Shown: in pieces, positions 40,075-53,473 of the stretch
How the letters are laid out: each line of letters begins with the position of its first letter
How positions within the stretch are numbered: position 1 is the first letter of the stretch
Source: Mycobacteroides chelonae
GTDB lineage: Bacteria > Actinomycetota > Actinomycetes > Mycobacteriales > Mycobacteriaceae
NCBI RefSeq assembly: GCF_016767715.1
Contig: NZ_CP050145.1
Location: forward strand, 1,240,001-1,304,000
Reading direction: 5' to 3'
DNA: 64,000 nucleotides
Made by a program: the position numbers and the translations under genes
Notes under the pieces: generated by a model
Databases searched by the model: none
Told to the model about the DNA's origin: nothing
Seen by the model: the letters and a program-made list of their open reading frames with translations, nothing else

Positions 40075-42338
40075 GTCCGGGTCCCGGCGAGTTCACGTGC
40101 TGCCCATTGCTTCTCGACTTCCTTCTCCACATCGGTGGGCAGGAAGCCGCTGGGTGCGAAAAGCCGGGACGGAACATCGTCGTCCTCGGTGGTTGGCAGA
40201 CCTCCGGCCCGCACCGCGCGCAGACACGTCCAGGCGGCGGCCGCCACGACCACCAACACCAACGAGGCGAAGACAATCGACAGCGTTCCCTGCACAAACG
40301 TGTTTCGGATCACGGCGTCGATGGCCTCGGGCGTCTTGGCGGTCTTGAACGTCGTCAAACCCGCGTCGCGGGCGTCCGCGTACAGCTGGTGCTGCTTCCA
40401 GTAGCCCACCGCGGGATCCGACGAGAAGATCTTCTGCCAGGACGCGGTCATGGTGACAATCAGGTCCCAAGCCAGTGGGACAGCGGGAATCCAGGCCCAC
40501 TTGTAGAGCCGCTGTTTGACGACGACCGTCAGCACCACCGTCAAAGCGATCGCAGCCAACAGCTGGTTGGCGATGCCGAACAATGGGAACAGGGTGTTGA
40601 TACCGCCCAGGGGGTCGGTGACGCCCATGAGCAGGATCGAGCCCCAGCCGCCGACGACGACCGCCGAGCAGATCCACGCCCCAGGCCGCCAGGAGGCGTC
40701 CTTGAAGCGGCGCAGCGGGCCGCCCAGGTTCCCCAGGGAATCCGACAGCATGAACCGGGCAACTCGGGTGCCGGCGTCGACGGTGGTGAGGATGAACAGC
40801 GCCTCGAACATGATCGCGAAGTGGTACCAGAACGCCTTGAACCCGCTGCCACCGAATACATCCGACATGACGTGCGAGATCCCGATGGCCAGAGTGGGGG
40901 CGCCGCCGGTGCGCGAGACGATCGAGGTCTCGCCGATGTCCTTGGCGGTTTGGGTCAGCTGCGCACCGGTGATGTCGGGCCCGCCGATCGGCAATGCGTT
41001 GACGTAGGCGGCCGCGGTTTCGGCGGTGCCGCCTGTGGCTGCGGTGGGTGCGTTGATCGCAAAGTACAAGTGCTGGTTGAGGATCGCCGCGGTGACCAGC
41101 GCCATGACGGCCACGAAGGACTCGGTGAGCATGCCGCCGTATCCGATGAAGCGGGCCTGGCTCTCCTTCTCCAGCAGTTTGGGTGTGGTCCCCGAGGCGA
41201 TCAGCGAATGAAAGCCCGAGAGTGCCCCGCAGGCGATGGTGATGAACAGGAACGGGAACAGCGATCCGGCGAAGGCCGGGCCCGAGGTATTGAAGGCGAA
41301 CTCGCTGACCGCCGGCAGCTGCGCCACTGGCCGGGCGATCAGGATGCCCAGGGCCAGCATCGCGATGGTCCCGACCTTCATGAAGGTCGACAGGTAGTCG
41401 CGGGGCGCGAGCAGCAGCCATACCGGCAGCACCGAGGCGGCGAACCCGTAGAACATCATCAGCCAGGCGATGGTGGTTTTGTCGAGGCTGAACAGTGTTT
41501 CACCCCAGCCTGATTTGGCAACCCAGCGGCCAGAGATGATCGCGGCGAGCAGCAGTGCGACACCGATGACGGTCACCTCACTGACCTTGCCCGGCCGCAG
41601 GTAACGCAGATACACGCCCATGAACAGCGCGATGGGGATGGTCATCGCGATGGAGAACACGCCCCAGGGGCTTTCGCCGAGGGCGTTGACGACGACCAAG
41701 CCCAGCACCGCGATCAGGATGATCATGATGACGAAGATGGCCACCATCGCGGCGACACCGCCGACGGTGCCCATCTCGTCGCGGGCCATCTGGCCCAGAC
41801 TGCGGCCACCGCGCCGGGTTGATATCACCAGCACCAGGTAGTCCTGGACGGCCCCGGCCAGTACGACGCCGACGACAATCCAGATGATTCCGGGCAGGTA
41901 CCCCATTTGCGCGGCCAGTACCGGGCCGACAAGCGGGCCCGCTCCGGCGATGGCGGCGAAGTGGTGACCGAACAGCACCCGCCGGTCGGTGGGGACGAAG
42001 TCCTTGCCGTTGTCGAGCGTCTCGGCCGGGGTGGCGCGGTCATCACGCGGTCTGACGAGCTTGCGTTCAATCAGCTTGGCGTAGAACCGGTAGGCGATGA
42101 GGTAGGTGCAGATCGCGGCGACGACGAACCAGACCGCGTTGACGTGTTCCCCGCGCAGCAGCGCGATCATCGTCCAGGCGAAGGCTCCCAGTAATGCCAC
42201 CAACACCAGCACCACGCGCGACGTGGGTGAGGGTGCCCGGTTGTCGATGACGCCGACGGGTGGAAGGTCGGGGTCGGTCCGCAGCAGTTCGACGCCGGGT
42301 GGGGGAGTCAGGTCCTGGGGCTCTGCGGCGGTGGCCAT
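40071..42338 (-). CDS. cstA: Carbon starvation protein A, peptide/pyruvate transporter
   Basis: This 755-residue membrane protein of the CstA family has about 16 to 18 hydrophobic segments, the conserved FGHHFAAIAGAGPLVGPVLAAQMG block near residue 122, the SGFHSLIASGTTPK segment and WYHFAIMFEALFILTTVDAGTRVARF. It takes up peptides or pyruvate during carbon limitation. The ATG at 42338 lies seven bases after TAAGGT, so it is leaderless. The YbdD gene is coupled behind it. M. tuberculosis has cstA elsewhere (Rv3063), so this locus has moved relative to it. Confidence 0.95.
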   Translation of the reverse strand: MATAAEPQDLTPPPGVELLRTDPDLPPVGVIDNRAPSPTSRVVLVLVALLGAFAWTMIALLRGEHVNAVWFVVAAICTYLIAYRFYAKLIERKLVRPRDDRATPAETLDNGKDFVPTDRRVLFGHHFAAIAGAGPLVGPVLAAQMGYLPGIIWIVVGVVLAGAVQDYLVLVISTRRGGRSLGQMARDEMGTVGGVAAMVAIFVIMIILIAVLGLVVVNALGESPWGVFSIAMTIPIALFMGVYLRYLRPGKVSEVTVIGVALLLAAIISGRWVAKSGWGETLFSLDKTTIAWLMMFYGFAASVLPVWLLLAPRDYLSTFMKVGTIAMLALGILIARPVAQLPAVSEFAFNTSGPAFAGSLFPFLFITIACGALSGFHSLIASGTTPKLLEKESQARFIGYGGMLTESFVAVMALVTAAILNQHLYFAINAPTAATGGTAETAAAYVNALPIGGPDITGAQLTQTAKDIGETSIVSRTGGAPTLAIGISHVMSDVFGGSGFKAFWYHFAIMFEALFILTTVDAGTRVARFMLSDSLGNLGGPLRRFKDASWRPGAWICSAVVVGGWGSILLMGVTDPLGGINTLFPLFGIANQLLAAIALTVVLTVVVKQRLYKWAWIPAVPLAWDLIVTMTASWQKIFSSDPAVGYWKQHQLYADARDAGLTTFKTAKTPEAIDAVIRNTFVQGTLSIVFASLVLVVVAAAAWTCLRAVRAGGLPTTEDDDVPSRLFAPSGFLPTDVEKEVEKQWAARELAGTRT

Positions 42339-42398
42339 GCGCGTTACCTTAGGTCCCCGCTGTGGCGCCCTGTCGTACATCGAGTGTCTGCTCAAGTT

Positions 42399-42423
42399 CA
42401 GGGAAAGATCGGGGCCATCCCTG
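42399..42423. promoter_or_regulatory. CAGGGA...TCCCTG palindrome, copy 1 (candidate operator)
   Basis: CAGGGA and TCCCTG arms (42399-42404 and 42418-42423) surround 13 bases. A second copy at 42787-42811 agrees at 22 of 25 positions and lies at nearly the same distance from its gene's start. It is 34 bases ahead of the ATG at 42458 and just above a TAGCGT -10 box (42447-42452). Confidence 0.7.
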
Positions 42424-42457
42424 ATGTGGCTCGTGATCTTGGTTCATAGCGTTGGGT

Positions 42458-42775
42458 ATGACCAAAACAGAGTGGTTTACAAGGTCTTTGGGTGCCGTCA
42501 TGGTGTTGCCGATTGCGGCGGTGGCACTGGCGGCCGTCGCGCAGGCGCGCCCGCAGGACTATGGCGACCCCGAGACCGTGATCAGTTCCCTTGAAGAACA
42601 AGGAAATTACGTCATGCTGAATCGAACGGGTACGTGGCCATTGGAGGACTGCGTGGTAACTGGGGTGCGGCAGGGCACCTCGGTGTACCGAGAAGAGCAT
42701 CCTGTCGGCGCCCACCGCAAGTCGGTTCAGAAGGTGCTGGACCACGGAACCTACTACGTGGACCTGGCATGCTGA
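42458..42775 (+). CDS. Small secreted protein of a two-cysteine paralogue family, member 1
   Basis: This 105-residue protein has a signal peptide (SLGAVMVLPIAAVALAAVAQA) and a mature part with VISSLEEQGNYVMLNR, LEDCVVTGVRQG and a final YYVDLAC. Two paralogues are at 43548 and 51461, with the same pattern: VI..L...G..VV[IL]NR.G, [DE]C..T.VR.G and a C-terminal Cys. The two Cys could pair in a disulfide. The TAGCGT -10 box ends five bases before the ATG. The function is unknown. Confidence 0.85.
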   Translation: MTKTEWFTRSLGAVMVLPIAAVALAAVAQARPQDYGDPETVISSLEEQGNYVMLNRTGTWPLEDCVVTGVRQGTSVYREEHPVGAHRKSVQKVLDHGTYYVDLAC

Positions 42776-42786
42776 GCCGCGAAGAC

Positions 42787-42811
42787 CAGGGAAAGATCAG
42801 GGGCTTCCCTG
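42787..42811. promoter_or_regulatory. CAGGGA...TCCCTG palindrome, copy 2 (candidate operator)
   Basis: This 25-base element matches the one at 42399-42423 at 22 of 25 positions, with identical arms CAGGGA and TCCCTG. It lies 36 bases ahead of the PspC ATG at 42848 and 24 bases above the TACGGT box (42836-42841). Confidence 0.7.
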
Positions 42812-42847
42812 ATGCGCCTGGACGTTTCGGCCGTCTACGGTGAATTT

Positions 42848-43033
42848 ATGACTACTGCACTGCGACGGCCCCGCGCGGGGAAGATGATCGGCGGGGTGTG
42901 CGCGGCAATCGCGCAGCGCTTCGGATGGGACGTGACGATCGTCCGGGTGCTCACGGTCGCGTCGATCCTGCTTCCCGGGCCGCAGGTGCTGGCCTACCTG
43001 GTGTTGTGGGCTCTTATTCCGCGGGAGCAATAG
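42848..43033 (+). CDS. PspC-domain small membrane protein
   Basis: This 61-residue protein has the PspC signature: basic N-terminus, GKMIGGVCAAIAQRFGWDVTIVRVLTV, then the helix LLPGPQVLAYLVLWALIP. PspC proteins are in phage-shock/envelope-stress signalling and often sit with LiaR-type regulators. The TACGGT box six bases before the ATG suggests a leaderless mRNA. No pspA, kinase or regulator gene is next to it. It shares an upstream palindrome with the secreted peptide gene before it. Confidence 0.9.
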   Translation: MTTALRRPRAGKMIGGVCAAIAQRFGWDVTIVRVLTVASILLPGPQVLAYLVLWALIPREQ

Positions 43034-43121
43034 CCCGACGGCGGGCGTTAAGTTAATTTCTCGTAACCACCGGGTGTATAGATCTCGGCACGGGGGCAAA
43101 TCATGAGCTAGTGTGCGGGGC

Positions 43122-43481
43122 ATGCGGTCATACGATTACCCCCTAAGGGTTATCGCATTAGCCGTTGTCTTGGGTGTGGTGTGCTTCGTCGGAGTGAATC
43201 CCGGAAGTGTCATGGGCCAGGCAACGGCGATGACGCACGCCGTCGACCCGGACGGTGCGAGTGCGGCGCCGGCGGATGCACCTCAGGTCGATGCCTTCGC
43301 GCAGGTGGTGCAGATCGCCAAGATGTGCCGCGGGGTTCTCGCAGGGGCGATGCTGCTGGTGCTCGGGTTCGTGGTGCGCTACGTGCTGCTCACCGCGACA
43401 CGGGGATCGCCTGTGCTGCAAAGAATTACCGGCCAATCAGGCCGGATGGTGCTGCTCAAAGGCTGTGTGAATCGGTGCTGA
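43122..43481 (+). CDS. LpqS-like small membrane or secreted protein, member 1
   Basis: This 119-residue protein has an N-terminal hydrophobic segment (VIALAVVLGVVCFVGV) and a second one (GVLAGAMLLVLGFVVRYVLL), then a C-terminal GCVNRC. This layout matches the two LpqS-like proteins at 50965 and 51858, which end CVSRR and CVIRR. A TAGTGT box seven bases before the ATG marks a leaderless start, and a copper-type box (TTACCC, GGGTTA) lies inside codons 6-10. A secreted two-cysteine peptide gene follows, as in the copper block. Confidence 0.7.
   Translation: MRSYDYPLRVIALAVVLGVVCFVGVNPGSVMGQATAMTHAVDPDGASAAPADAPQVDAFAQVVQIAKMCRGVLAGAMLLVLGFVVRYVLLTATRGSPVLQRITGQSGRMVLLKGCVNRC
43137..43151. promoter_or_regulatory. 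RicR-type box, degenerate, inside the first codons
   Basis: TACCC-CCTAA-GGGTT, nine of ten bases of the TACCC-N5-GGGTA copper-responsive RicR motif. It lies 15 to 29 bases after the predicted leaderless start at 43122. Such a place could still repress transcription. Confidence 0.5.
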
Positions 43482-43547
43482 TGGGGTCGGTTAACCCGAC
43501 CCCATATCAGTCATGCCGCGATAACGCGGTTCTACACAGGAGCATCC

Positions 43548-43847
43548 ATGATTTCTCGTTTTGCGGTATCCACGCTGGCGGTAGCAGCGACACTTCTCAC
43601 TGCGCCGACGGCGCAGGCCGGTCCCGATGGCGATCCTGCTGCCGACGTCATCGCCGACTTGGAGGCGCGCGGGAACGTCGTCGTGATCAACCGTGTGGGC
43701 AGTGGGCCCATGGCGGACTGCAAGGCGACCGCCGTGCGGCCCGGCAGGTTATTGGCGCCGGGGGCGTCGATCAATGCGCCGGGGACTAGCTGGGGTGGAT
43801 CGATCCTGTCGACTCATCGCGTGATGCACGTCGACATCAAGTGCTGA
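43548..43847 (+). CDS. Small secreted protein, two-cysteine family, member 2
   Basis: This 99-residue protein has a signal peptide (FAVSTLAVAATLLTAPTAQA) and the mature pattern DVIADLEARGNVVVINRVGSG, MADCKATAVRPG and MHVDIKC. A Shine-Dalgarno AGGAGC precedes the ATG. It follows the LpqS-like gene at 43122, the same pairing as at 50965 and 51461. Its stop overlaps the convergent DUF488 gene by 11 bases. The function is unknown. Confidence 0.85.
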   Translation: MISRFAVSTLAVAATLLTAPTAQAGPDGDPAADVIADLEARGNVVVINRVGSGPMADCKATAVRPGRLLAPGASINAPGTSWGGSILSTHRVMHVDIKC

Positions 43848-44184
43848 GGAAATCCCGCAGCACGATCGCGTGATTGTGCTCCGGGTCCTTGGCGGCGTAG
43901 AGCAGTGTGACGGTGCCGTGTTCGCGTTCAAGCTCGTGAGCGGTGTCCACCGCCGGATTGGTGGCCAGCTCGGCGCGGTACTCGTCGGCGTAGGTGGCCC
44001 ACTCCTCAGCAGGGGCGTGATGCCAGCGGACCCGCAGGTCGGGGCTCGGTGCGATGTCCTTGAACCAGAGGTCGACCTGCGCGGCAGCCTTGCTCACGCC
44101 GCGCGGCCACAGCCGGTCGACCAGCACGCGATAACCGTCCGAGGGGTCGGGAGTCTCGTAGATCCGCTTGGTGGAAAAGGTCAC
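43837..44184 (-). CDS. DUF488-family protein
   Basis: This 115-residue protein is a typical DUF488 member: YETPDPSDGYRVLVDRLWPRG, then WHHAPAEEWATYADEYRAEL and GTVTLLYAAKDPEHNHA. Family members are small cytoplasmic proteins of unknown role. The GTG at 44184 is used because the family usually begins near VTFSTKRIYETPD and AAGAAT precedes it by six bases; an ATG at 44223 is possible. Confidence 0.88.
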   Translation of the reverse strand: MTFSTKRIYETPDPSDGYRVLVDRLWPRGVSKAAAQVDLWFKDIAPSPDLRVRWHHAPAEEWATYADEYRAELATNPAVDTAHELEREHGTVTLLYAAKDPEHNHAIVLRDFLST

Positions 44185-44226
44185 CTGAGCATTCTTATCT
44201 GCCGGGGTCCGTAGACTCACCATCTC

Positions 44227-45300
44227 GTGAGCCTGAACTTGGGAATCGTTGGTCTGCCGAACGTCGGAAAGTCGACGCTGTTCAACGCGCTAACGCGCAA
44301 CAACGTGCTGGCGGCCAACTACCCGTTTGCGACCATCGAACCGAACGAGGGCGTGGTGCCGCTGCCGGACCCGCGCCTGGACAAGCTGGCGGAGGTATTC
44401 GGCTCGGCGCGGACCCTGCCCGCGACCGTGACGTTCGTGGACATCGCCGGAATCGTCAAGGGTGCCTCCGAGGGGGCCGGGCTGGGGAACAAGTTCCTGG
44501 CCAACATCCGTGAATGCGATGCCATCTGTCAGGTGGTGCGGGTGTTCGCCGATGACGACGTCGTGCACGTGGACGGCCGCGTCGATCCGGCCGCCGATAT
44601 CGAGGTGATCGAGACCGAGCTGATTCTCGCCGATATGCAGACGCTGGAGAAGGCGGTGCCGCGGCTGGAGAAGGAAGCCAAGACCAAGAAGGACCGTCAG
44701 CCGCTCGCTGACGCTGCCAAGGCCGCTCAGGAGGTCCTCGACAGCGGCAAGACGCTGTTCTCGACGGGGCAGGACTGGTCGGTGGTGCGGGAGCTGAACC
44801 TGATGACCACCAAGCCCTTCCTGTACGTGTTCAACGCCGATGAATCGGTGCTCGGTGACGAGGCGCGGGTCGCTCAGCTGCGGGAGCTGGTGGCCCCCGC
44901 CGATGCGGTGTTCCTGGACGCGAAGATCGAGTCCGAGCTGCAGGAGCTCGACGAGGAGTCCGCTGCGGAGCTGCTGGAGTCGATCGGGCAGAGCGAACGG
45001 GGCCTGGATGCGTTGGCGCATGCGGGATTCCACACGCTCAAGCTGCAGACCTACCTGACCGCCGGGCCAAAAGAGGCGCGGGCGTGGACGATTCACCAAG
45101 GAGACACCGCGCCCAAGGCGGCCGGGGTCATCCACACCGACTTCGAGAAGGGCTTCATCAAGGCCGAGGTGGTGTCCTACGAGGATCTCGTCGAAGCCGG
45201 TTCGATGGCCGCGGCGAAGGCGGCCGGGAAGGTCCGGATGGAAGGCAAGGAGTACGTCATGGTCGACGGCGACGTGGTCGAATTCCGTTTCAACGTCTGA
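44227..45300 (+). CDS. ychF: GTPase/ATPase YchF (OLA1-like)
   Basis: This 357-residue protein has the P-loop GLPNVGKST (from residue 7), the switch DIAGIVKGASEGAGLG and a C-terminal TGS-like domain ending in YVMVDGDVVEFRFNV. YchF is an ATPase of the Obg family that acts in stress and translation quality control. The start is GTG. The position after ispH and the Rv1111c-like gene equals Rv1112. Confidence 0.97.
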   Translation: MSLNLGIVGLPNVGKSTLFNALTRNNVLAANYPFATIEPNEGVVPLPDPRLDKLAEVFGSARTLPATVTFVDIAGIVKGASEGAGLGNKFLANIRECDAICQVVRVFADDDVVHVDGRVDPAADIEVIETELILADMQTLEKAVPRLEKEAKTKKDRQPLADAAKAAQEVLDSGKTLFSTGQDWSVVRELNLMTTKPFLYVFNADESVLGDEARVAQLRELVAPADAVFLDAKIESELQELDEESAAELLESIGQSERGLDALAHAGFHTLKLQTYLTAGPKEARAWTIHQGDTAPKAAGVIHTDFEKGFIKAEVVSYEDLVEAGSMAAAKAAGKVRMEGKEYVMVDGDVVEFRFNV

Positions 45301-45391
45301 TCACCTGGTGACTGACGTGTCGCAGATGCGTGCACCCGCTTGATCGTGACGCGTAAGGTCGCAGGATCTAGCCGAGCGATAGGCTCCGTTC

Positions 45392-46141
45392 ATGGCATCC
45401 CTCGCTCCTCACAGAAAGTTCGTGACTGAGTTCGAGGCGTATGCAGGGCGTGGCCAGCGGTTCCAGCCGACCATAGAGCGTGAACTGGATGCCGATCTTC
45501 GGTCGTTGGCGGAGCGTTTGCCAGGTGCCGATGACGGACTCATGGCTGTGGTCGAGTTTCCGGGACCGCGTGGCGTGCCCGATCTGCTCGTCGTTTCACG
45601 CGGGTTTGAGGCGTTGGGGCAGCGCTTGTCCGCAGACGTTCCGTACATCGACAGCCCGGCCGATTGTGCGGTCGTGGCAGAACTTAGCTTGAACCGTACT
45701 CGGACTGCGGCGAGTGTGGCCGCAGCATCCGGCATGAGTATCGGCCAGGTCGAGCGGAGGCTTCGAGCCCTCGCACTGACCGGTGCCACCGTTCCGCAGG
45801 GGGCAGGGTACCGGCGGCATCCAAGTGTCGAGCCAATTGGCCGAACGTATGCCTTCGAGGCGAAAGTCTCAGACTGGCGCCGTGGGTTGAGTCAGGCGCT
45901 GACCTACTCTTCGTGGGCTGATGCGTCCGTGTTAGTGCTGCTTCGGGCGCCGCGTGATACTGACGAGCTAGAGCGTCGGTGCGAGGCGTTGAATGTTGGT
46001 TTGGCTATTCGCGACACCTGGGTACGGAGGCCCCGCATAGGGAGGCCACATCGTTCGTTGAGGCTGGAGGCATCAGAACGTTTGGCTTCGGAGGTTAGCC
46101 GGTTGAACTCAGAAGCCTTCCCCAGCGGCATACGCCTCTAG
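45392..46141 (+). CDS. Winged-helix plus PD-(D/E)XK-nuclease-like protein
   Basis: This 249-residue protein has an N-terminal region, then a helix-turn-helix-like part ([27 protein letters not shown], about residues 101-128) and a nuclease-like segment YAFEAKVSDWRRGLSQALTYSSWADASVLVLL near residue 152. The E-x-K with the Q helix behind it recalls PD-(D/E)XK enzymes. It lies alone ahead of a convergent kinase operon and overlaps the end of its partner by 33 bases. GC at third positions looks lower than in housekeeping genes. The function is unknown; defence is possible. Confidence 0.65.
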   Translation: MASLAPHRKFVTEFEAYAGRGQRFQPTIERELDADLRSLAERLPGADDGLMAVVEFPGPRGVPDLLVVSRGFEALGQRLSADVPYIDSPADCAVVAELSLNRTRTAASVAAASGMSIGQVERRLRALALTGATVPQGAGYRRHPSVEPIGRTYAFEAKVSDWRRGLSQALTYSSWADASVLVLLRAPRDTDELERRCEALNVGLAIRDTWVRRPRIGRPHRSLRLEASERLASEVSRLNSEAFPSGIRL

Positions 46142-47275
46142 TACGTCCGACATGGCATCGCGCCACACCTCCTTGTCGTGTCTCCTCACTGCTGGCACGC
46201 CTGAGATCAACGCATTGAAATGTGTGTCGGCGACGGCGTACCGATCGCGAAGTGCGACGTAGCGATCTCGTCCGGGGTTGCAAGCATTGATATCGTGGAC
46301 GACTTTTTGCAGCTGGTTTAGGTGATGCATTCGTTCGAGATTTGCAGATGGGGGGAGCGGGCCGCCGCGAATCACATCGGCCTGCGCGCTGTTCCATTTG
46401 ACGATCTGGTCGGCGGTGTCGCGGCGAAGAATCGCATGGATATTTCCCTGGGTGACGTACTCGGCTTGGCGTCGGATGCCCGGATCAGAGTCGATGTGAA
46501 ACGAGCTCGCTTTCGGGTCGAAGGTCTTTTGGGCGCGGTGCCACCCAGTGCCGACGGTATCGGCGCCTGCTGCGACCGCCGGAAGCCCGGCATAGTCGGA
46601 GTAGCCGACGATTACTCGAGATCGCCGAGACAGGGAGCGCACAGTGCGGCAAAGCCCAACGAAGGCCGCGACATCCGTGAGGTCGGGCTCGGAGTCAATG
46701 ACGACTTCATTGGCGACGGTGACCACCCATACTTTGGCACGCAGGGTTGCGAGGCTGCCAACGTATCCATCGAGATCGGGGCCGGACGCCCAAAACTGTC
46801 TCGTACCGACCAGCGACTGCCACGTGCCTGGCGCGAGGCCACTAGCAATTCGCCCTATGTCGAGAGCGATGGTGGCCTCGGACGACACAGGAGTTGAAAG
46901 CTGAACGGTCGGGGCTAACGACGGCGCTTGCAGGCTTGCCTGAACCTGAAACACGCGCTCGACGTGGGCTGTGCGCGTGCTCACCTTCGAAAGGTCCATG
47001 TCGCCAGTTGGCCACAGGTCCCACTGGTCGTAGAACTCTAGTTTGTTCGTGCTCGGTAACAGCCTTGCGTGTGTCATGGGGTCGAACACGAAAGTGCTAC
47101 TGAGGTCTTGCATGTCGTCAGCAAGCGTGGCGGCGTTCGGGTGTCGATCTTCTGCGATGCGCGGCGTTGAGAACGGGGTAGCGATGATGCCATCGGCGAA
47201 GCCCGACGACACCGCCGTCGTTGCCCATTTTCTGTGTCCGACTACCCGACTGTCATGGATAAGTACGCCGCTCAT
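46109..47275 (-). CDS. Unknown protein, partner of the kinase at 47272
   Basis: This 388-residue protein has no family I recognise. The middle has a beta-alpha pattern (KVWVVTVANEVV, FVGLCRTVRSLSRRSRVIVGYSDYAGLPAVAAGADTVGTGWHRA), as in a TIM-type barrel with a sugar-, phosphate- or nucleotide-binding end. The C-terminal part is helical (LERMHHLNQLQKVVHDINA and VWRDAMSDVLEAYAAGEGF). Its start overlaps the kinase stop (ATGA), so the two are coupled. It may be a kinase substrate or effector. The region has lower GC than the flanking genes. Confidence 0.75.
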   Translation of the reverse strand: MSGVLIHDSRVVGHRKWATTAVSSGFADGIIATPFSTPRIAEDRHPNAATLADDMQDLSSTFVFDPMTHARLLPSTNKLEFYDQWDLWPTGDMDLSKVSTRTAHVERVFQVQASLQAPSLAPTVQLSTPVSSEATIALDIGRIASGLAPGTWQSLVGTRQFWASGPDLDGYVGSLATLRAKVWVVTVANEVVIDSEPDLTDVAAFVGLCRTVRSLSRRSRVIVGYSDYAGLPAVAAGADTVGTGWHRAQKTFDPKASSFHIDSDPGIRRQAEYVTQGNIHAILRRDTADQIVKWNSAQADVIRGGPLPPSANLERMHHLNQLQKVVHDINACNPGRDRYVALRDRYAVADTHFNALISGVPAVRRHDKEVWRDAMSDVLEAYAAGEGF

Positions 47276-48129
47276 GAGTTGTCCCCCCGAATCCTGCGAA
47301 TTTCTCCGAACAGCTCCGTGCCATCAAGGTATCGCCTGGCAGGCTGCTTGTTGAGGCACTCATTGACGACTCGTCGGAGGTCGTTTGACAGGTCGGCCCG
47401 GTGGTCGTGAAGATCAGGGCAGGACTGGTCGCGCAACCGGTTGAAGTACTCGTCGCCACTCGCACCGACCTGGATTGGTAGGACGCCCGTGAGGGCTCTG
47501 AATGTCAACACGCCAAGCACGAAAACATCACTCGCAGGGAGGGGTTTTCCTCCTGGTACGTGCTCGGGTGACATGAACCCCGCAGTGCCCGGTTGGAAGA
47601 CACCCGTTAGTGCGGTCTTCTCGAGATGCCGCGCCAGACCAGGGTCCATGAGTACGAAACGGTCTTCATCGGTCAGCCGGACGTTACCCGGAGAAAGGTC
47701 TCGGTGTACGACCGACAGTTCGTGGCAGGCGCTCAGGCCGAGTGCGCCATCGGTGAGGAGCTGCCACGCTCGGTCCTCAGTCCAGGGTGGGTCGAGATTA
47801 GCCGACAGGTCACTTCCAGACAGCCGTTCTTCTGCCCAGCAGATGGCATCTGGCTTGTTACCAACTTCAACGGCGTCGGTAAGTACTCGTACAACGTGAG
47901 GTGAGTCAACCGCGCCCAACAGGTCAACTTCGCGAACAGCACGTCTGATCACTTCGAGGCCGCTAGGACCGTCGGGCACGATCACAATCTTCGCGACAGC
48001 GGGGGCGCCTGCGAGTGTGCCGCTCAAAACGATCTTCTGGCCGCCTGTAGTCAGCGGTTTTACGTCCTCCAGTCCGAGGCGGTCAGCAGCATCGGTGATG
48101 AGTTCGCGTGCCGACATGATCTCCCCCAT
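47272..48129 (-). CDS. Serine/threonine protein kinase
   Basis: This 285-residue Hanks-type kinase has the catalytic lysine in AVAKIV (about K47), the alpha-C Glu in REVDLLG (about E67), HRDLSPGN (142-149), DPG in place of DFG (162-164), SPEH in place of APE, and the F-helix Asp about D201. The glycine loop is short (TTGGQK). There is no membrane helix or PASTA domain, so it is soluble. A GGAGGG precedes the ATG at 48129; an ATG at 48183 would overlap an upstream ORF. It is coupled to the next gene. Confidence 0.88.
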   Translation of the reverse strand: MGEIMSARELITDAADRLGLEDVKPLTTGGQKIVLSGTLAGAPAVAKIVIVPDGPSGLEVIRRAVREVDLLGAVDSPHVVRVLTDAVEVGNKPDAICWAEERLSGSDLSANLDPPWTEDRAWQLLTDGALGLSACHELSVVHRDLSPGNVRLTDEDRFVLMDPGLARHLEKTALTGVFQPGTAGFMSPEHVPGGKPLPASDVFVLGVLTFRALTGVLPIQVGASGDEYFNRLRDQSCPDLHDHRADLSNDLRRVVNECLNKQPARRYLDGTELFGEIRRIRGDNS

Positions 48130-48179
48130 ATACCCTCCCGCCCGGGCAATGTGAACCCGGCAAAGTATCGACCAGCGAA

Positions 48180-48290
48180 TCATATCGGGCGCGGATCACC
48201 GTAGGGGGGAACCTGCGTGATGCGTCGGCCTGACGGTTCGCCAGCGGCCCGGCTGTCGTCCAGGAGGCGCCGGTGCAAGTGCTCGTCCAT
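48180..48290 (-). CDS. Small ORF upstream of the kinase (36 residues)
   Basis: MDEHLHRRLLDDSRAAGEPS and a Pro-rich end (VPPYGDPRPI). Its third-position GC is high, as in real genes here, and its TGA overlaps an ATG at 48183 that is in the kinase frame. It was read by hand. It may be a leader gene, or random. Confidence 0.35.
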   Translation of the reverse strand: MDEHLHRRLLDDSRAAGEPSGRRITQVPPYGDPRPI

Positions 48291-48295
48291 CGCTG

Positions 48296-48457
48296 TCACC
48301 CGTGTTGGTGAACTGCGTTCACCTCGCGAGCCACGTGGATGAAAGCGGCTCGACTCTCATTTCGATTGTCCCCGATAGCACTGATGTCAACATGTAGTGA
48401 TTCATGGTCACCGTAGAGATTTGTGACAACCGAGGCGGAATCTAGTGCCGACAGCAT
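48296..48457 (-). CDS. Small ORF upstream of the kinase (53 residues)
   Basis: The product begins MLSALDSASVVTNLYGDHES and continues with HVDISAIGDNRNESRAAFIHV and a short tail. It lies on the same strand as, and five bases ahead of, the 36-residue ORF. Third-position GC is near 50 percent, like the kinase region. It may be a remnant of a longer gene or a short accessory gene. No homologue is known to me. Confidence 0.3.
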   Translation of the reverse strand: MLSALDSASVVTNLYGDHESLHVDISAIGDNRNESRAAFIHVAREVNAVHQHG

Positions 48458-48461
48458 CTGA

Positions 48462-48842
48462 TCACCCGATGGGTTCGATCCACTGAGTGCGGGATGGTCC
48501 GGCTTCGAAGGGTTCGCCGAAGTACTGCGTTTCGCGGATCACCTCGCCGTCTTCGAACTCCATGATGCTCACAACATGAAAGGGCTGTGCGTCGTACGTC
48601 GCGACTAGCTCGCTGACCCACAGATCGCCACCACCGGTTATCCGTCGCACAGTGAACCGTTTCCTGTTCGGTTGAGCTTCACGCGAGGCTTGAATGTTGG
48701 CGCGGCCACGAATTCGCTCACCAGACTGCGGGTACTCGAGAACCGCATCATCTCGATAGACACGATGCTCCGCGTCGAAGTCGTTCGCGTCGGAGGCTGC
48801 CCAGTGGGCTTCCAGCGCACCTCGCGGATCCGTGTCAGTCAT
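48462..48842 (-). CDS. NTF2-like / SnoaL-like protein
   Basis: This 126-residue SnoaL-type domain shows LEAHWAASDANDFDAEHRVYRDDAVLEYPQSGERIRG, then FTVRRITGGGDLWVSELVATYDAQPFHVVSIMEFEDG. The ATG at 48842 overlaps the VOC gene by eight bases and has a GGAGG-type sequence ahead. Its role is unknown; family members bind or isomerise small molecules. Confidence 0.85.
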   Translation of the reverse strand: MTDTDPRGALEAHWAASDANDFDAEHRVYRDDAVLEYPQSGERIRGRANIQASREAQPNRKRFTVRRITGGGDLWVSELVATYDAQPFHVVSIMEFEDGEVIRETQYFGEPFEAGPSRTQWIEPIG

Positions 48843-49221
48843 GGAGGCCCTTCTCTGAATCGTAGAACTGGACGAGGCAGAACTCATTTCCTTCGGGATC
48901 GAGCATCATGAGCGTCACGCCCTCGTCATAGTCATGACGCTCGCCGGACCACGCCCCGCCGAGGCGCTCGACTTGAGTGCGCGCAGCATCGATGTCGTCG
49001 ACTTCAACGTCGAGATGAAGCCGCACCTTCGAGGTCTTCGCCTCCGGTACACGCTGAAAGGTGAGTCGCGGTTGATTGCCGGTGCGTGTGCCCAGCGTGG
49101 CCCATCCCGGATCGTCACCGTGCTCGGCGGTGGGTGCGAGGGCCAGGAGTGCACCCCAGAACGACGAGAGCCGCGCAGGGTCCGCACAGTCGATCGTGAG
49201 CCCCATCCAACGATTCGTCAC
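48835..49221 (-). CDS. VOC-superfamily (glyoxalase-like) protein
   Basis: This 128-residue VOC protein has WMGLTIDCADPARLSSFWGALL, then VRLHLDVEVDDIDAARTQVERLGG and MMLDPEGNEFCLVQF. The motif set is that of glyoxalase/bleomycin-resistance-like proteins, with few metal residues clear. The GTG at 49221 starts it. It is translationally tied to the NTF2-like gene. Confidence 0.87.
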   Translation of the reverse strand: MTNRWMGLTIDCADPARLSSFWGALLALAPTAEHGDDPGWATLGTRTGNQPRLTFQRVPEAKTSKVRLHLDVEVDDIDAARTQVERLGGAWSGERHDYDEGVTLMMLDPEGNEFCLVQFYDSEKGLHD

Positions 49222-49300
49222 CAGCCCATTGTTGACCGACCAACCGGAGTTGTCGCATAAACCCGGGCACTTCGTGGTGTGTCGGACAATCTGCCGCGCG

Positions 49301-50824
49301 TTAGTCCTGCACGTAGGACACGACCGCCATCATTCCGGCTTCGCCGTGATAGATGTTGTGGCAGTGGGTAAGCCACTGCCCGGGATTGTCGGCATCGAAG
49401 TCCACCTCGACGGTCTTCATGGGGGCGACGAGGACCGTGTCTTTGCGGGCGCGGTACGTCCCCTTCGCATCTCGGACCGAGAAGGTGTGCCCGTGGAGAT
49501 GCATGGGGTGGAACATCATCGAGTCATTGACGAAACGTAGCCGTGCCCGTTGGCCCTCACGTACGGGCAGCCCGTCGCGTGGATCGTAGGTCTTGCCGTT
49601 GATGGTCCAGGTGTACTTGCCGACGGGACCGGCCAACCGCACATCGTGAACGATGTCCGTGTTGCGCTGGCTCAGTTGAACCTCGGGGGCAGCGCTGAGT
49701 GTCGCGGTGTCCAGTGGCACCTGGGACTTCATCAGCATCGCGGCATCTTCGGCGCGCCCGCGCACCGCGGTATCTCCGGAACGCAGAATCAGTTGGGCGA
49801 AGCCATCTTTCCCTTCCGGCACTGCCACGAGCGGCACCGACGAACCCGGGATGGTGACGACGGCATCGACTCGCTCGCCCATGGTCACCAGGATGGTGTC
49901 GGCCTGGAAGGGCTGCACCGGGAAGCCGTCGGTGTGGGTAACCGTCATCGGCACGCCGGGAATGCTGACCCGGAACGCCGTATCGCCGCCGGCGTTGACG
50001 ATGCGCAACCGCACCCGCTGTCCGGCGGGATACGTAGTGGCCTGCGGATCGGCAGCCACCCGCCCATTGATCAGATAGTGGGGGTACTTCACATCGCCGG
50101 CGTCCATCCCCAGCGGCGCGGTCGGGTCAGATCCCATGCCTCCCATCATCGAATGATCCATCGGGGGCATGCCCTTGGCGCGTAGCCCTTCGAGCACCTG
50201 GTCGGGATCGGTACCGGTGCCGTCGATCCAGTCATCGAGCGCCACCACCAACTCCTCGTCGTACTCGGTGCGCTCATCGGGGTCCTCGATGATCAGCGGC
50301 GCGTACAGTCCGCGATCGATCTGTGTACCGACATGGGGGTGGAACCAGTACGTCCCCGCGTGAGGCACCGCGAACTCATAATCGAACACTCCGGTGGGCG
50401 GTATTTCCGGCTGGGTGAGGCCGGGCACGCCGTCCATATCGTTGCGCAGGGCGAGCCCGTGCCAGTGCACGGTGGTGGGCGCCGGGAGATTGTTGACAGT
50501 TTGCACCCGCAGGATTTCACCCTTTCGAACACGGATCTCCTGGCCGGGTACCCGCCCTCCGTATGCCCACGTCTGCACCTGGGTGCCGGCGAGGTCGAGC
50601 TGAGTGGGCCCGGCGTTCAGAGCGAACTGTCTGATCGCGGCCCCTTGGGGTCGCCGGGCCGCTTCTACTGCGGCGACTCGGGCTGAATCAGGTGTAACGC
50701 GTTGTGGTGTCGCGGTTCCGGAGGGGCTCCTGGTGCAGGACGCGAGAAACCCGGCTGCGGCCACGGTCATGCCCAGACGGAGGAGCTCGCGGCGGCCAAG
50801 CAGTGGTGAATTGCCCGTTGTCAT
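49301..50824 (-). CDS. mmcO: Multicopper oxidase MmcO-like, lipoprotein exported by Tat
   Basis: This 507-residue oxidase has a twin-arginine signal (RRELLRLG) and a lipobox (FLASC), then copper-binding motifs HWHGL, WFHPHVG, HPMHLHGHTF and HCHNIYHGEAGMM. M. tuberculosis MmcO (Rv0846c) oxidises Cu(I) and protects from copper outside the membrane. A copper-type RicR box lies 12 bases ahead of the ATG. It is divergent from LpqS-like genes, as in M. tuberculosis. Confidence 0.95.
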   Translation of the reverse strand: MTTGNSPLLGRRELLRLGMTVAAAGFLASCTRSPSGTATPQRVTPDSARVAAVEAARRPQGAAIRQFALNAGPTQLDLAGTQVQTWAYGGRVPGQEIRVRKGEILRVQTVNNLPAPTTVHWHGLALRNDMDGVPGLTQPEIPPTGVFDYEFAVPHAGTYWFHPHVGTQIDRGLYAPLIIEDPDERTEYDEELVVALDDWIDGTGTDPDQVLEGLRAKGMPPMDHSMMGGMGSDPTAPLGMDAGDVKYPHYLINGRVAADPQATTYPAGQRVRLRIVNAGGDTAFRVSIPGVPMTVTHTDGFPVQPFQADTILVTMGERVDAVVTIPGSSVPLVAVPEGKDGFAQLILRSGDTAVRGRAEDAAMLMKSQVPLDTATLSAAPEVQLSQRNTDIVHDVRLAGPVGKYTWTINGKTYDPRDGLPVREGQRARLRFVNDSMMFHPMHLHGHTFSVRDAKGTYRARKDTVLVAPMKTVEVDFDADNPGQWLTHCHNIYHGEAGMMAVVSYVQD

Positions 50825-50835
50825 GATGCTATGTA

Positions 50836-50850
50836 TACCCCGTAGGGGTA
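50836..50850. promoter_or_regulatory. RicR-type copper box between mmcO and the LpqS-like genes
   Basis: TACCC-CGTAG-GGGTA fits the RicR consensus exactly, and the extended palindrome ATACCCC-GTA-GGGGTAT (50835-50851) is perfect. It serves the mmcO gene and the divergent plus-strand operon. RicR is a Cu(I)-responsive repressor of this kind of locus. Confidence 0.88.
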
Positions 50851-50881
50851 TTTAAAGCGAATCGCGTGCTACGGTCGGGGT

Positions 50882-50968
50882 GTGTTGCCGTCCAGTGGTG
50901 AACTGCAACCGGTGTGGCGGGTCCGCGTCGTGTCGGGTGCCCGTGTCCTGGCCGAGGCGACGTGGTGA
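50882..50968 (+). CDS. Candidate 28-residue leader peptide ahead of the LpqS-like gene
   Basis: A GTG at 50882 lies six bases after TACGGT (50870-50875), in the leaderless position. The frame runs 28 codons and its TGA overlaps the next gene's GTG by four bases (GTGA at 50965-50968). This suggests translational coupling. The peptide has no Cys or His run, so it is not an obvious copper sensor. It may be an attenuation leader or chance. Confidence 0.4.
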   Translation: MLPSSGELQPVWRVRVVSGARVLAEATW

Positions 50969-51369
50969 AAATCAGGGGTTCGTCGGGATCTCGATGGATA
51001 GCCGTGTTTGTCGCAGGCGTGATCGCCGCACTGCCGGTACTGCATTGCACGGTGATGGCCGATGCGGCGCTCCCGGTCGCTTCGCACCAGCTCGCTGCGT
51101 CCGCGTCTGACGCGGTTGAGGGTGTGGGCCAGCACATCGGCCGGGCCTCCCAGGACTTCACCAGCCAGATCTTCGATGTGATCGCCGGAAAAGTCCGATC
51201 CGGTAACGCATTCCGAATGCTATGGGCGGCGGCGCTGGTCGTGACCCTGGCTGTTTCGCTGCTCCCTTTGCGGGTGGTGGTCACACGCGCGCCGCCGCGT
51301 CGTCCTGCGTGTGTCACGGTCGTTGGCGGCAGGGCCCGTCTGCATCAGATCTGCGTGAGTCGGCGCTGA
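50965..51369 (+). CDS. LpqS-like small membrane or secreted protein, member 2
   Basis: This 134-residue protein has an N-terminal hydrophobic segment with VIAALPVLHC, then a hydrophilic helix, a second helix (MLWAAALVVTLAVSLLPLRVVV) and a C-terminal end LHQICVSRR. That end matches the end of LpqS (FCLARR in Rv0847). LpqS is a copper-induced lipoprotein of unknown role. The GTG at 50965 overlaps a possible leader ORF. It is in the mmcO divergon. Confidence 0.78.
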   Translation: MKIRGSSGSRWIAVFVAGVIAALPVLHCTVMADAALPVASHQLAASASDAVEGVGQHIGRASQDFTSQIFDVIAGKVRSGNAFRMLWAAALVVTLAVSLLPLRVVVTRAPPRRPACVTVVGGRARLHQICVSRR

Positions 51370-51460
51370 TGAATCCCTTGCGGCGGATATGTCCTGCTGC
51401 CGCATACGGCTGTCAGTGAAGACTCGCCACACCGAAGTGGCGCAGACGTTGGGAATCGTT

Positions 51461-51838
51461 ATGTACGGACGCCTCATCTTCCACCGCCTCGGCGGCCTCT
51501 GTGTGGCCGCGGCCGCTGCTGGTGCACTCATGGCTGTTGGCACGCCGCGTGCCGACGCCGGTCCCAAGAACCATGGGAACGCCGACGTTGTCATCACGTC
51601 CCTGAAGGCCCGGGGAGACAAGGTCGTCATCAATCGGCGCGGCAGCGCACCGCTGAGCGAGTGCGTTGCGACCTCCGTGCGCGAGGGGCGGTCGGAGTAC
51701 CGCTGGCAGCGCATCCGTGTGGCCGATCCCACCAGTCCGCTGGTCCAGGTGCTGGACTACCGGGTCATGCATGTCAGCGTTGAGTGCTGGCCACAGTTAG
51801 ATAGCGATCAGGTCACATACCCCATGAGGGTATGTTAA
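51461..51838 (+). CDS. Small secreted protein, two-cysteine family, member 3
   Basis: This 125-residue protein has a signal peptide (LGGLCVAAAAAGALMAVGTPRADA) and the mature pattern VVITSLKARGDKVVINRRGSA, LSECVATSVREG and VMHVSVEC. The C-terminal 20 residues after VEC are extra relative to the two paralogues. A RicR box is inside its last codons. Its function is unknown; placement in the copper block suggests a role with copper. Confidence 0.83.
   Translation: MYGRLIFHRLGGLCVAAAAAGALMAVGTPRADAGPKNHGNADVVITSLKARGDKVVINRRGSAPLSECVATSVREGRSEYRWQRIRVADPTSPLVQVLDYRVMHVSVECWPQLDSDQVTYPMRVC
51818..51832. promoter_or_regulatory. RicR-type copper box ahead of lpqS
   Basis: TACCC-CATGA-GGGTA, with extended arms CATACCC and GGGTATG. 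It lies 25 bases ahead of the lpqS ATG and just above its TAACCT -10 box (51846-51851). It overlaps the 3' end of the secreted peptide gene. Confidence 0.88.
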
Positions 51839-51857
51839 ATCGTGCTAACCTCGCGTC

Positions 51858-52280
51858 ATGCTGACCGGAGCGCGCCGCACGAGTCGCCGTGGGCGGCTGT
51901 GGCTGGTCGCGGTCCTCGTCGCAACGGTCGCGACCCTGCCGGTCTTGCACTGTGTCTCCGTCGGTCATGGTGGCGGCGAGGCGCCGCACCATAAGGCGAC
52001 GCACGCCGCACTCCAGGGGCACGGGCCATCGGCTACCCATGCGCACCTCGACAACGCGGTCCACGAGATGGCATGTCAGACCGCGGACGGGCTGGTCGCA
52101 CTGGCCCGGGGTTTCAATCCACTGCGGATTCTCTTCGTGCTGGCCGCGTTTGCTCTCGCCATGTTGGTGTTCCAGCCCGTGGCTGCCCAACTCTCGCGCG
52201 GTCCACCACGTGCTATCGGTTATCACGGGGCCCGAACGGGCCGCGACATTCTCACCAAACTCTGCGTCATTCGGCGCTGA
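51858..52280 (+). CDS. lpqS: LpqS (Rv0847-like), copper-responsive small protein
   Basis: This 140-residue protein has a hydrophobic N-terminus with TLPVLHC, a His-rich linker ([20 protein letters not shown]) able to bind copper, a second membrane segment and the end [15 protein letters not shown], much like LpqS of M. tuberculosis. A TAACCT box six bases before the ATG marks a leaderless mRNA under the RicR box. The genes cysK2 and an MFS carrier follow, as in Rv0847-Rv0849. Confidence 0.87.
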
Positions 52281-52372
52281 TCGGCCCCTCGGGCAAAGCG
52301 GAGTTCCGCCATGCCCGCACGCCGTCATCAGCTTCCCGGCCGCGCCGTGCGGCCCCCACGCAGGGATTCTCA

Positions 52373-53473
52373 ATGAACAACAGCATTGCTCTGTCATCTC
52401 GTCGTAGCTGCACACACCTAGGGCCTAAGTTCCACGACCCCAACACGCTGGTGGGCAACACCCCGGTGCTGTGGGTATCGGAGCCGTTCGCGACGCCGGG
52501 CACCGGCTTCTGGGCCAAGCTCGAAGGTCATAACCCCAACGGCATGAAAGACCGGCCCGCGCTGCACATGATCGAACAGGCCAGGGCGCGCGGAGAACTC
52601 AAGCCCGGTGCCATGATCGTCGAATCAACCAGCGGGACGCTGGGGCTGGGACTGGCGCTGGCCGGAATCATCTACCGGCACCCGGTCACCCTCGTCACCG
52701 ATCCGGGCCTGGAGCCCATCGTGCGCAGCATGTTGACCGCCTACGGCGCTCGGGTCGAGATCGTCACAGAACCACATCCGATCGGAGGATGGCAGCAGGC
52801 GCGTAAGGATCGTGTCGCAGAAATACTTGCCGCCGAAACGGATTCGTGGTGCCCCGATCAGTATCAGAACCCCGACAATGTCGATGCCTACCGCGGGCTC
52901 GCGGAAGAACTGATCGACCAGCTCGGAACAGTGGATACCCTGGTCTGCTCGGTGGGAACCGGCGGACATTCCTCGGGTGTGGGACGTGTACTGCGGGAAC
53001 ATAATCCGGACCTGCGACTGGTAGGGGTCGACACCATCGGCTCCACGATTTTCGGGCAGCCCGCCAGCTCACGCCTGATGCGCGGTCTCGGGTCGAGCAT
53101 CTATCCGGGCAATGTCGACTACGCCGCATTCGACGAAGCGCATTGGGTGGCACCGAATGAGGCCGTCTGGGCGGCCCGGACGCTGGCCGCTGCGTACCAC
53201 GCCAGCGGCGGGTGGAGCGTCGGGGCAGTGGCATTGGTCGCGGGGTGGGTGGCACGGACATCGGCTCCCGGATCCCGTGTCGCGGCGATCTTCCCCGACG
53301 GTCCGATGCGCTACCACGGCACCATCTACGATGACGATTACTGCCGCAGCCACGATCTGTTGGACCGTCCACCGGCGCAGGATCCTGACGTGATCGACGA
53401 TCCGTCGGATCGGGTAGTGGACCGATGGACCAGGCTGACCCGCGTGATCGACCCAATCGGGAGAATGGCGTGA
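52373..53473 (+). CDS. cysK2: S-sulfocysteine synthase-like CysK2 (Rv0848-like)
   Basis: This 366-residue PLP enzyme of the cysteine synthase family has GNTPVLWV, the PLP lysine in [10 protein letters not shown] (about K59), [12 protein letters not shown] and [10 protein letters not shown]. The protein lacks the ASNG-type sequence of O-acetylserine sulfhydrylases, in line with CysK2, which makes S-sulfocysteine. The ATG at 52373 was chosen. Its GTGA overlap with the MFS gene shows one operon under the copper box. Confidence 0.93.

Follow-up and report, generated by a model that had tools for sequence, protein, structure and literature searches.

In a 64,000-nucleotide stretch of the Mycobacteroides chelonae genome (RefSeq assembly GCF_016767715.1, contig NZ_CP050145.1, positions 1240001-1304000 of a single 5.06 Mb contig; hereafter, the window), three genes encode LpqS-like proteins, two of which stand directly before a gene for a small secreted peptide with two cysteines. 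LpqS is the product of a copper-induced gene without a settled function. We propose, with a probability of about 0.6, that LpqS is a nascent-chain copper sensor that governs the next gene and acts during its own synthesis; that is, LpqS is perhaps a translation-time copper sensor and not an ordinary envelope protein. Three features seen in aligned genes, namely an R-[GAS]-P-P motif, a near-fixed last codon and a covarying hairpin at the stop, argue that LpqS would act in cis on the gene that follows it. The initial annotation of this DNA had described the LpqS/peptide pair as a duplicated two-part module, possibly a copper-binding or envelope device.

LpqS carries an arrest-type motif at a set distance from conserved histidines

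The three LpqS-like genes of the window, here called A, B and C, start at 43122, 50965 and 51858. Their products share the C-terminal third, as had been noticed initially, with R94, P97, G107-R108, L111, C115-V116 and R118 in the numbering of A. Copies B and C pass the NCBIfam model for LpqS (NF052429, cut-off 35 bits; scores in Table 1), while A stays below the cut-off (14.3 bits, E 0.038). A profile built from the six LpqS-like proteins of the source genome finds exactly six places there and nothing more at E<=5. After the second hydrophobic stretch, these six proteins read RGPP (three), RAPP, HGPP and RGSP (one each), and their aligned tails end in C-[VI]-x-R-R/C. LpqS is annotated as a (lipo)protein, and a lipobox has a small residue just before its cysteine. 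B and C both contain LPVLHC, with a histidine directly before the cysteine, and A has no cysteine there (by eye only).

For the genus, LpqS loci were taken mostly from the upper part of a longer NF052429 match list (30 plus 55 further stretches), together with four stretches from three Mycobacteroides genomes, one partial match, the window and two stretches of the source genome. These gave 117 open reading frames (ORFs), seven of which lacked a cysteine 3-4 residues before the end and were dropped; the 110 counted come from 57 genomes. About 21 residues from the end, they read RGPP (86, including four RGPPP), RAPP (9), RSPP (7), RGSP (3), HGPP (2), RGSS (1) or WGPP (1), with no such motif in the remaining ORF, so that R[GAS]PP is present in 102 of the 110 and R[GA]PP in 95. 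The RGSP of A recurs at the loci of two relatives, and RGSS is found in one. Among 147 other mechanically called ORFs of the source genome (47,684 residues), R[GA]PP occurs twice, 341 and 761 residues before the C-termini.

In an alignment of 72 LpqS rows (209 columns, mean column identity 31%), the most conserved columns are C132, R135, P115, R112, P114 and G124, followed by L128, H60, R136, H62 and H44. The motif residues R112 and P114 are each kept in 70 rows and P115 in 71, and C132 is invariant (72/72). The residue between R and PP is G in 61 rows, A in 5, S in 5 and D in 1. RGPP and RAPP have been reported as the most versatile ribosome-arrest cores, with RGPP the strongest, and RSPP and RDPP as partly permissive (PMC12992588). 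Judged by these published mutants, all four residues found in LpqS would permit arrest, at least in part. Upstream of the motif, three histidines are conserved (His 44 in 65/71 rows, His 60 in 66/72 and His 62 in 65/72), and the distance from the last conserved histidine to the Arg is 50 residues in 46 of 64 rows (range 47-53). Downstream, 21 residues follow the PP in 53 of 72 rows. This tail has G, L, C, R and R/C at -13, -9, -5, -2 and -1 from the end, giving the pattern G-x3-L-x3-C-x2-RR. The same five tail positions are also conserved in LpqS copies that have lost RGPP.

A covarying hairpin lies just past the LpqS stop codon in aligned cysK2 loci

From 80 stretches in which LpqS precedes cysK2, alignment A4 took 54 and alignment A5 took 62; one or both of them leave out near-duplicates, Mycobacteroides, a divergent subgroup and loci whose starts are doubtful. 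In the 62 aligned cysK2 loci, a hairpin lies 3' of the LpqS stop, and its 5' arm, GGTCAGCG, starts about 3 nt past the stop codon and falls inside the footprint of a terminating ribosome. The hairpin has 85.3% paired cells, compared with at most 53.9% for versions slid along the alignment. It covaries: two-sided changes affect 70 cells, against 28.4 (standard deviation 4.1) in shuffles, a value reached in 0 of 500, and 5-24 cells in the slid versions, and the covariation is 0.246 versus 0.163. In 89 of the 91 rows that end in Arg, CGC serves as the last sense codon, and the preceding Arg codon uses all four CGN forms. A further helix over the stop codon itself (P0, CGCTGA/TCAGCG) is 88% paired, with covariation that is not above shuffles (58/500).

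In several LpqS subfamilies, the hairpin begins inside the stop codon or a few bases past it. That of A (Table 1) was predicted again in three relatives, with altered stems and fold energies that are not unusual there (z 0 to -1.6); more generally, single-sequence fold z scores range from -0.8 to -4.3 in one set and from 0 to -2.3 in another. Intrinsic terminators near LpqS were at chance level in scans of stretch L048 (3200-5700) and of the window (42300-43900).

The mRNA of the LpqS tail may in addition mask the ribosome-binding site of the next gene, which we consider plausible on moderate evidence from folding and duplex prediction. In the fold of window positions 52255-52375 (z -4.29), CTCTGCGT, which encodes L-C-V in the tail of C, is predicted to pair with ACGCAGGG in the cysK2 ribosome-binding region, and the predicted duplex has -19.2 kcal/mol (p 0.045 and 0.015). 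Likewise, the fold of 43450-43552 (z -4.14) has a predicted pairing between the tail of A and the ribosome-binding region of peptide 2 (-22.1 kcal/mol; p 0.19 with the tail shuffled, 0.05 with the site shuffled). Across 18 pairs (Mycobacteroides-type and from genome G147), the tail/site duplex has -17.3 kcal/mol, compared with -14.1 for shuffled tails (p 4e-4) and -14.5 in a coding control (p 0.045); across 66 loci of the genus, it has -17.0 compared with -15.3 (p 0.005) and -12.6 (p 5e-7), respectively. The predicted accessibility of the ribosome site is 0.386 with the tail free and 0.456 with a ribosome at the stop (p 2e-4), a small effect in which some of the 86 start codons folded are doubtful.

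LpqS precedes cysK2, secreted peptides and other genes

Locus A of the window (42.4-43.9 kb) has LpqS-like A followed by peptide 2, with peptide 1 and a PspC-domain protein before them. In locus B (49.3-54.7 kb), a multicopper oxidase gene on the minus strand and an operator palindrome come first; LpqS-like B and peptide 3 follow, and then, after another palindrome, LpqS-like C with cysK2 and an MFS transporter gene. We take the arrangement of locus B to be that of M. tuberculosis Rv0846c-Rv0849 (multicopper oxidase, LpqS, cysK2, MFS) with additional copies. The order of LpqS before peptide that had been pointed out for 43122/43548 and 50965/51461 was confirmed, and it is found twice more at 2.12 Mb; the repetition of the pair stands, with four LpqS/peptide loci in the genome in place of the two first counted. 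Four of the six LpqS-like genes of this genome directly precede a peptide gene. The locus at 2.12 Mb runs operator, LpqS, peptide, peptide, LpqS, peptide, operator and His-rich P-type ATPase, while the one at 1.98 Mb runs operator, LpqS, beta-carbonic anhydrase, operator and peptide.

The initial annotation had also suggested looking for co-occurrence in other genomes, and LpqS is indeed followed by a peptide gene in 5 of the 57 genomes (the source, G000, together with G115, G074, G170 and G147). In the full set of 110 ORFs, the gene after LpqS is cysK2 in 80 cases, a peptide in 12 and another gene in 18. Because 80 of 110 precede cysK2 and 12 a peptide, the peptide is not the general partner of LpqS. 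The notion of an obligate two-part module is not supported by this count, nor by the finding that 11 of the 18 peptides of the source genome lie away from LpqS and operators. LpqS and the peptide do form a recurrent pair, one among several pairings of LpqS.

At E<=0.01, NF052429 has matches in at least 92 of 148 genomes of the genus, 67 of them above the cut-off, with up to 11 matches per genome. Expansions to 7-11 matches are seen in G030, G143, G114, G070 and G098, where a few LpqS genes precede PPE-like (by eye) or other genes and not cysK2. G147, a 6.3 Mb genome of the same genus, carries LpqS (RAPP), peptide, LpqS (RSPP) and cysK2 (stretch L138, 4407-5810), the gene order of locus B; the tail/ribosome-site duplexes of its two LpqS genes are both strong.

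Copper-type operators lie at the LpqS loci of the source genome

The palindrome TACCC-N5-GGGTA occurs at 50836 and 51818 in the window, where 0 sites are expected, and at 16 sites genome-wide, compared with 5 for the reversed pattern. The enrichment is limited to the N5 spacer: the looser TACCC-N3-7-GGGTA has 23 sites genome-wide, and its reversed pattern likewise 23. Six of the 16 sites lie at LpqS/peptide loci, two by a gene for an HMA copper chaperone, one before a CopA-type ATPase gene, one before a second carbonic anhydrase gene, two about 0.7 kb from a gene for a CsoR-family repressor and four without a recognised copper gene. Operators in this genome adjoin a multicopper oxidase, the HMA chaperone, two P-type ATPases and two carbonic anhydrases, and the genome has two CsoR-family repressor genes. 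From the sequence pattern and its neighbours, we take this site set as the putative copper regulon of the organism. Five of the six LpqS genes lie in loci with operator-type sites, and the sixth with a diverged site. Operator-type sites, in keeping with the copper-type control that had been suspected for the pair, lie at both loci of the window, at 50836 and 51818 and, in diverged form, within the start of 43122.

Two beta-carbonic anhydrase genes adjoin copper-operator palindromes in stretches L061 (2307-2924) and L047 (3991-4584), one of them immediately after an LpqS-like gene. In stretch L053 (8283-9080), a copper-operator palindrome is located 33 nt 5' of a gene whose 254-aa secreted product, judged by eye, resembles an MspA porin.

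The two-cysteine peptides form a family of their own

Open frames were found at all six starts given for the peptide and LpqS-like genes. The three peptides of the window (42458, 43548 and 51461) share the motifs reported for them, with 25 invariant alignment columns that include V-I, N-R-x-G, C65, T68, V-R-x-G and C105. Their N-terminus is, by eye, of the signal type, and two conserved cysteines lie about 40 residues apart, the second cysteine being at or near the C-terminus; besides these two, no metal-ligand pattern is evident. The peptide profile (E<=1e-3) finds 18 places in the source genome, seven of which adjoin LpqS or an operator, with 11 elsewhere. The family is present in 23 of 61 genomes searched, all 23 within the genus, and the named matches of both the peptide and the LpqS-like families are mostly from Mycobacteroides (M. 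salmoniphilum, chelonae, abscessus, saopaulense and others). Peptide 1 has no Pfam or NCBIfam match at E<=1, these libraries gave nothing convincing for the peptides in general, and the profile found no relative among solved structures (best E 0.41). At the end of peptide 3 (window 51785-51838), the sequence reads TGC TGG, compared with TGC TGA in all three relatives examined; with TGG replacing TGA after the end Cys, the frame extends by 16 codons, through the operator at 51818. Judged by their sequences, the peptides are probably small secreted proteins with one disulfide, and the likeliest reading is that of a small secreted disulfide family, a subset of which was recruited into the copper regulon.

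Features of the window

The coordinates of the features are collected in Table 1. Upstream of LpqS-like A, a TTAATTT-TCGTAACCA-CGGGTGTAT block (43053-43079, about 43-69 nt 5' of the gene) is mostly preserved in four genomes (the window, L158, L160 and L161); it is a possible promoter upstream of the operator sited within the start of LpqS-like A. The window also contains a match to the ASdes small RNA (RF01781) on the minus strand at 21872-21939 (59.7 bits).

Table 1 Features of loci A and B, in window positions.
Feature	Position	Strand	Basis
Secreted two-cysteine peptide 1 (Cys65, Cys105)	42458..42775	+	Alignment; peptide profile E 5e-52
PspC-domain protein between peptide 1 and LpqS-like A	42812..43033	+	PF04024, E 5e-23
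LpqS-like A, diverged, RGSP replaces RGPP	43122..43481	+	Alignment; own-genome LpqS profile
Diverged operator-like palindrome TACCCCCTAAGGGTT within first codons of LpqS-like A	43137..43151	.	ACCC-N5-GGGT core in 3/3 relatives
R-G-S-P motif codons, LpqS-like A	43401..43412	+	Sequence, alignment
Predicted hairpin starting in LpqS-like A stop codon, CTGATGGGGTCGG...CCGACCCCATATCAG	43478..43510	+	Fold z -4.14 for 43450-43552
Peptide 2 ribosome-binding region ACACAGGAGCA	43533..43546	+	Predicted pairing with LpqS-like A tail codons ~43461-43469
Secreted two-cysteine peptide 2	43548..43847	+	Alignment; peptide profile E 1.5e-41
Multicopper oxidase (MmcO-like), divergent from LpqS-like B	49301..50824	-	PF07731, PF07732, PF00394
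Copper-operator-type palindrome TACCCCGTAGGGGTA, oxidase/LpqS-like B intergenic	50836..50850	.	Pattern scan, 0 expected in window
LpqS-like B	50965..51369	+	NF052429 38.7 bits, cut-off 35
R-A-P-P arrest-type motif codons, LpqS-like B	51286..51297	+	Sequence, alignment
Secreted two-cysteine peptide 3, common end Cys at 51785-51787	51461..51838	+	Alignment; peptide profile E 1.6e-54
Copper-operator-type palindrome TACCCCATGAGGGTA	51818..51832	.	Pattern scan; kept in the three relatives examined
LpqS-like C, His-rich loop	51858..52280	+	NF052429 56.9 bits; nearest of three to model
R-G-P-P arrest-type motif codons, LpqS-like C	52197..52208	+	Sequence, alignment
LpqS-like C tail codons L-C-V (CTCTGCGTC)	52260..52268	+	Predicted pairing with cysK2 ribosome-binding region; fold z -4.29
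cysK2 ribosome-binding region ACGCAGGG, predicted partner of LpqS-like C tail	52358..52365	+	Fold, duplex prediction
cysK2-like pyridoxal phosphate enzyme downstream of LpqS-like C	52373..53473	+	PF00291

A model for LpqS and its alternatives

Our model suggests that nascent LpqS would first present a membrane segment and then an exposed loop with the conserved histidines, followed 50 residues past the last of these by R-[GAS]-P-P. With this spacing, the histidines would be just clear of the ribosome when the Pro-Pro is at the active site. We hypothesize that the ribosome pauses at the motif, about 21 codons before the stop. During the pause, the mRNA of the remaining tail and the stop hairpin would be free, so the tail could mask the ribosome-binding site of the next gene, be it a two-cysteine peptide gene, cysK2 or another, and the hairpin could form. 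Copper bound to the histidines, or the loop being pulled through the membrane, would release the pause; the released ribosome would reach the stop, where it would cover both the tail and the hairpin's 5' arm, leaving the next gene exposed. Control would accordingly run from copper to release to the ON state, and the peptides would be one class of output, small secreted proteins made under copper stress.

Several observations weigh against this model. LpqS-like A carries RGSP, which is no proven arrest motif, and the motif counts come from a collection in which the hidden Markov model gathering the ORFs was seeded with R[AG]PP proteins, though the loci themselves came from the NCBIfam model. 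Just 47 of the 110 LpqS genes of the genus have, in the stretch searched, an operator with no more than one mismatch. The 10 pairs of the hairpin that have a two-sided change are equalled by two slid versions (10 and 11), and relatedness of the rows inflates the hairpin counts and can on its own surpass the shuffles. As for the masking step, single loci reach p<=0.05 for the tail/site duplex only in 7 of 18 and 14 of 66 cases, and no duplex signal was seen at 50965 or at genome positions 2118914 and 1977735 (p 0.75, 0.28 and 0.55). In the alignment of the genus, the tail/site helices in two registers gave no covariation (38/500 and 500/500 shuffles as high or higher). Against the downstream sequence, own LpqS tails scored no differently from swapped ones (20.36 versus 20.02, p 0.13, with the own tail ahead in 59 of 110 cases), and the site is not less accessible than with shuffled tails (0.386 versus 0.411, p 0.11). 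The motif also stands 21 residues from the end, compared with 3 in the copper-responsive CruR discussed below. Finally, the tail is conserved as protein, with the wobble positions mostly free, which would be unneeded in a pure leader, and this is the main feature without an explanation under a simple leader. The tail residues could serve at termination, as contacts with the tunnel or as an additional arrest element, or they could be the reason to keep a finished protein; in TnaC, changes at residues 12 and 16 are reported to abolish stalling at the end of its ORF.

We considered three other explanations. The stop hairpin could be an element of mRNA stability or processing only, with the tail pairing due to chance in a GC-rich RNA. 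Single-sequence folds that are not always unusual, and a tail pairing that does not covary, are in keeping with this, and the start of the hairpin inside or just past the stop in several LpqS subfamilies, in the footprint of the terminating ribosome, argues against it; we consider it rather unlikely.

LpqS could also be a conventional membrane copper protein with two segments whose work begins once its synthesis is complete, holding or passing copper through its histidines and the tail Cys, in which case RGPP would cap the second helix and the gene order would reflect a common operon. The conserved histidines, the protein-level conservation of G-x3-L-x3-C-x2-RR with free wobble, and the listing of lpqS as a RicR-regulated putative lipoprotein in a review all speak for this. 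Against it, the same review states that M. tuberculosis became no more sensitive to copper when a single RicR-regulated gene, mymT excepted, was disrupted. Moreover, R[GAS]PP is kept in 102 of the 110 ORFs although RGPP, RAPP and RSPP are reported to be strongly avoided in bacterial proteomes, no tetrapeptide being more under-represented than RGPP in ten bacterial groups (PMC12992588), and the near-fixed last codon and the covarying hairpin find no explanation here. We regard such a post-synthesis role as rather improbable. The copper-binding or envelope device of the initial annotation fits the conserved histidines, and it leaves R-[GAS]-P-P, the last codon and the hairpin unexplained.

That LpqS and the peptide make up a copper device of two dedicated proteins, with copper passed for example from LpqS to the peptide and the unit duplicated in Mycobacteroides, is very improbable, because, against the four of six source-genome LpqS genes that directly precede one of only 18 peptide genes and the peptide after LpqS in four further genomes, most LpqS genes precede cysK2 (80/110), one in the source genome precedes a carbonic anhydrase gene, 11 of 18 peptides stand apart and the peptides show no evident metal ligands beyond their two Cys.

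Within the nascent-chain model, we would tentatively go one step further, at somewhat less than even odds: LpqS may be mainly a sensor and not an effector, with an RGPP arrest that is tuned by the His loop and gates the next gene through the stop hairpin and the masking tail. This module would have been copied (up to 11 LpqS matches per genome) before cysK2, disulfide peptides and other genes, and tail positions -1/-2, -5, -9 and -13 would perhaps form a second arrest element at termination. If the nascent-chain model is true, mycobacteria would use a transcriptional repressor, RicR, and a ribosome-based sensor in series, and the phenotypes of lpqS mutants, or the lack of them, would have to be read again as lost control of the next gene. 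The principle of CruR and CutF, so far from Gram-negatives, would then extend to a His-based mycobacterial sensor.

Comparison with known systems

A search of the literature found no paper that ties LpqS to ribosome stalling or an arrest peptide, and no regulatory role for LpqS. The main text of PMC12992588 names neither LpqS nor mycobacteria, and its supplementary tables, which the search did not cover, may hold LpqS unnamed; the available part of a paper on metals in M. abscessus (PMC11442307) mentions neither LpqS nor CsoR. Compared with M. tuberculosis, where LpqS (NF052429) belongs to the RicR regulon, the source genome has six diverged copies, four of them before secreted peptides, and two of the three in the window pass the model.

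Membership of LpqS in DUF2946 (PF11162, gathering threshold 23.7), the family of CruR, was considered and rejected, as LpqS-like C scores 8.6 bits (E 4). Among 29 mainly Mycobacteroides LpqS members, six matched PF11162 at E<=10 (best E 4.7e-4); for the 72 members of the genus, DUF2946 was not among the best 25 of 49 families (E<=1), and it was found in 0 of 119 actinobacterial genomes at E<=0.001. As LpqS falls below DUF2946 by profile, we say that it may work like the CruR/CutF family, not that it belongs to it.

CruR (Bp2923) of Bordetella pertussis carries CXXC, 45 residues and RAPP, and both motifs and their spacing are required for copper control (PMC9426467); its arrest was demonstrated in vitro (PMC12992588). 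Like LpqS, it is a small exported-type protein directly 5' of its target, with a copper-ligand motif at a set distance before an arrest-type motif and in a copper context. The geometry from ligand to motif is similar in both, and the ligands are different, CXXC in CruR and histidines in LpqS. RAPP also lies much nearer the end in CruR, and control there runs via Rho in an unstructured region, in contrast to the structured, covarying RNA after LpqS. CutF of Rhodobacter capsulatus, likewise a protein of the DUF2946 type, is a copper sensor that acts while it is being exported, and its control of a multicopper oxidase gene works by way of an mRNA stem-loop (PMC9973294). As part of CutFOG it resembles LpqS in being a small exported protein with a copper motif, a C-terminal proline motif and an RNA structure at the next gene, the stem-loop lying over the next ribosome-binding site; its C-terminal motif gave no stalling in a LepB fusion test (PMC9973294). 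CutF lies upstream of its oxidase gene, whereas the oxidase gene of the window is divergent from LpqS and not downstream.

ApdA arrest peptides, which precede secDF and are known also from Mycobacteriales (PMC10987492), resemble LpqS in that a small exported protein from the same taxonomic order bears a RAPP-like motif; unlike LpqS, they have a protein-export gene downstream and no copper link. Copper-related RAPP/RGPP upstream ORFs have been reported in several lineages (PMC12992588, EMBO J 2025). The RAPP/RGPP arrest peptides of Streptomyces lividans (for example the metal-linked SLIV_16130) arrest in vitro (PMC12992588) and, like LpqS, are small membrane or secreted proteins of an actinomycete with RAPP/RGPP near the C-terminus, conserved Cys/His and a metal-related gene downstream.

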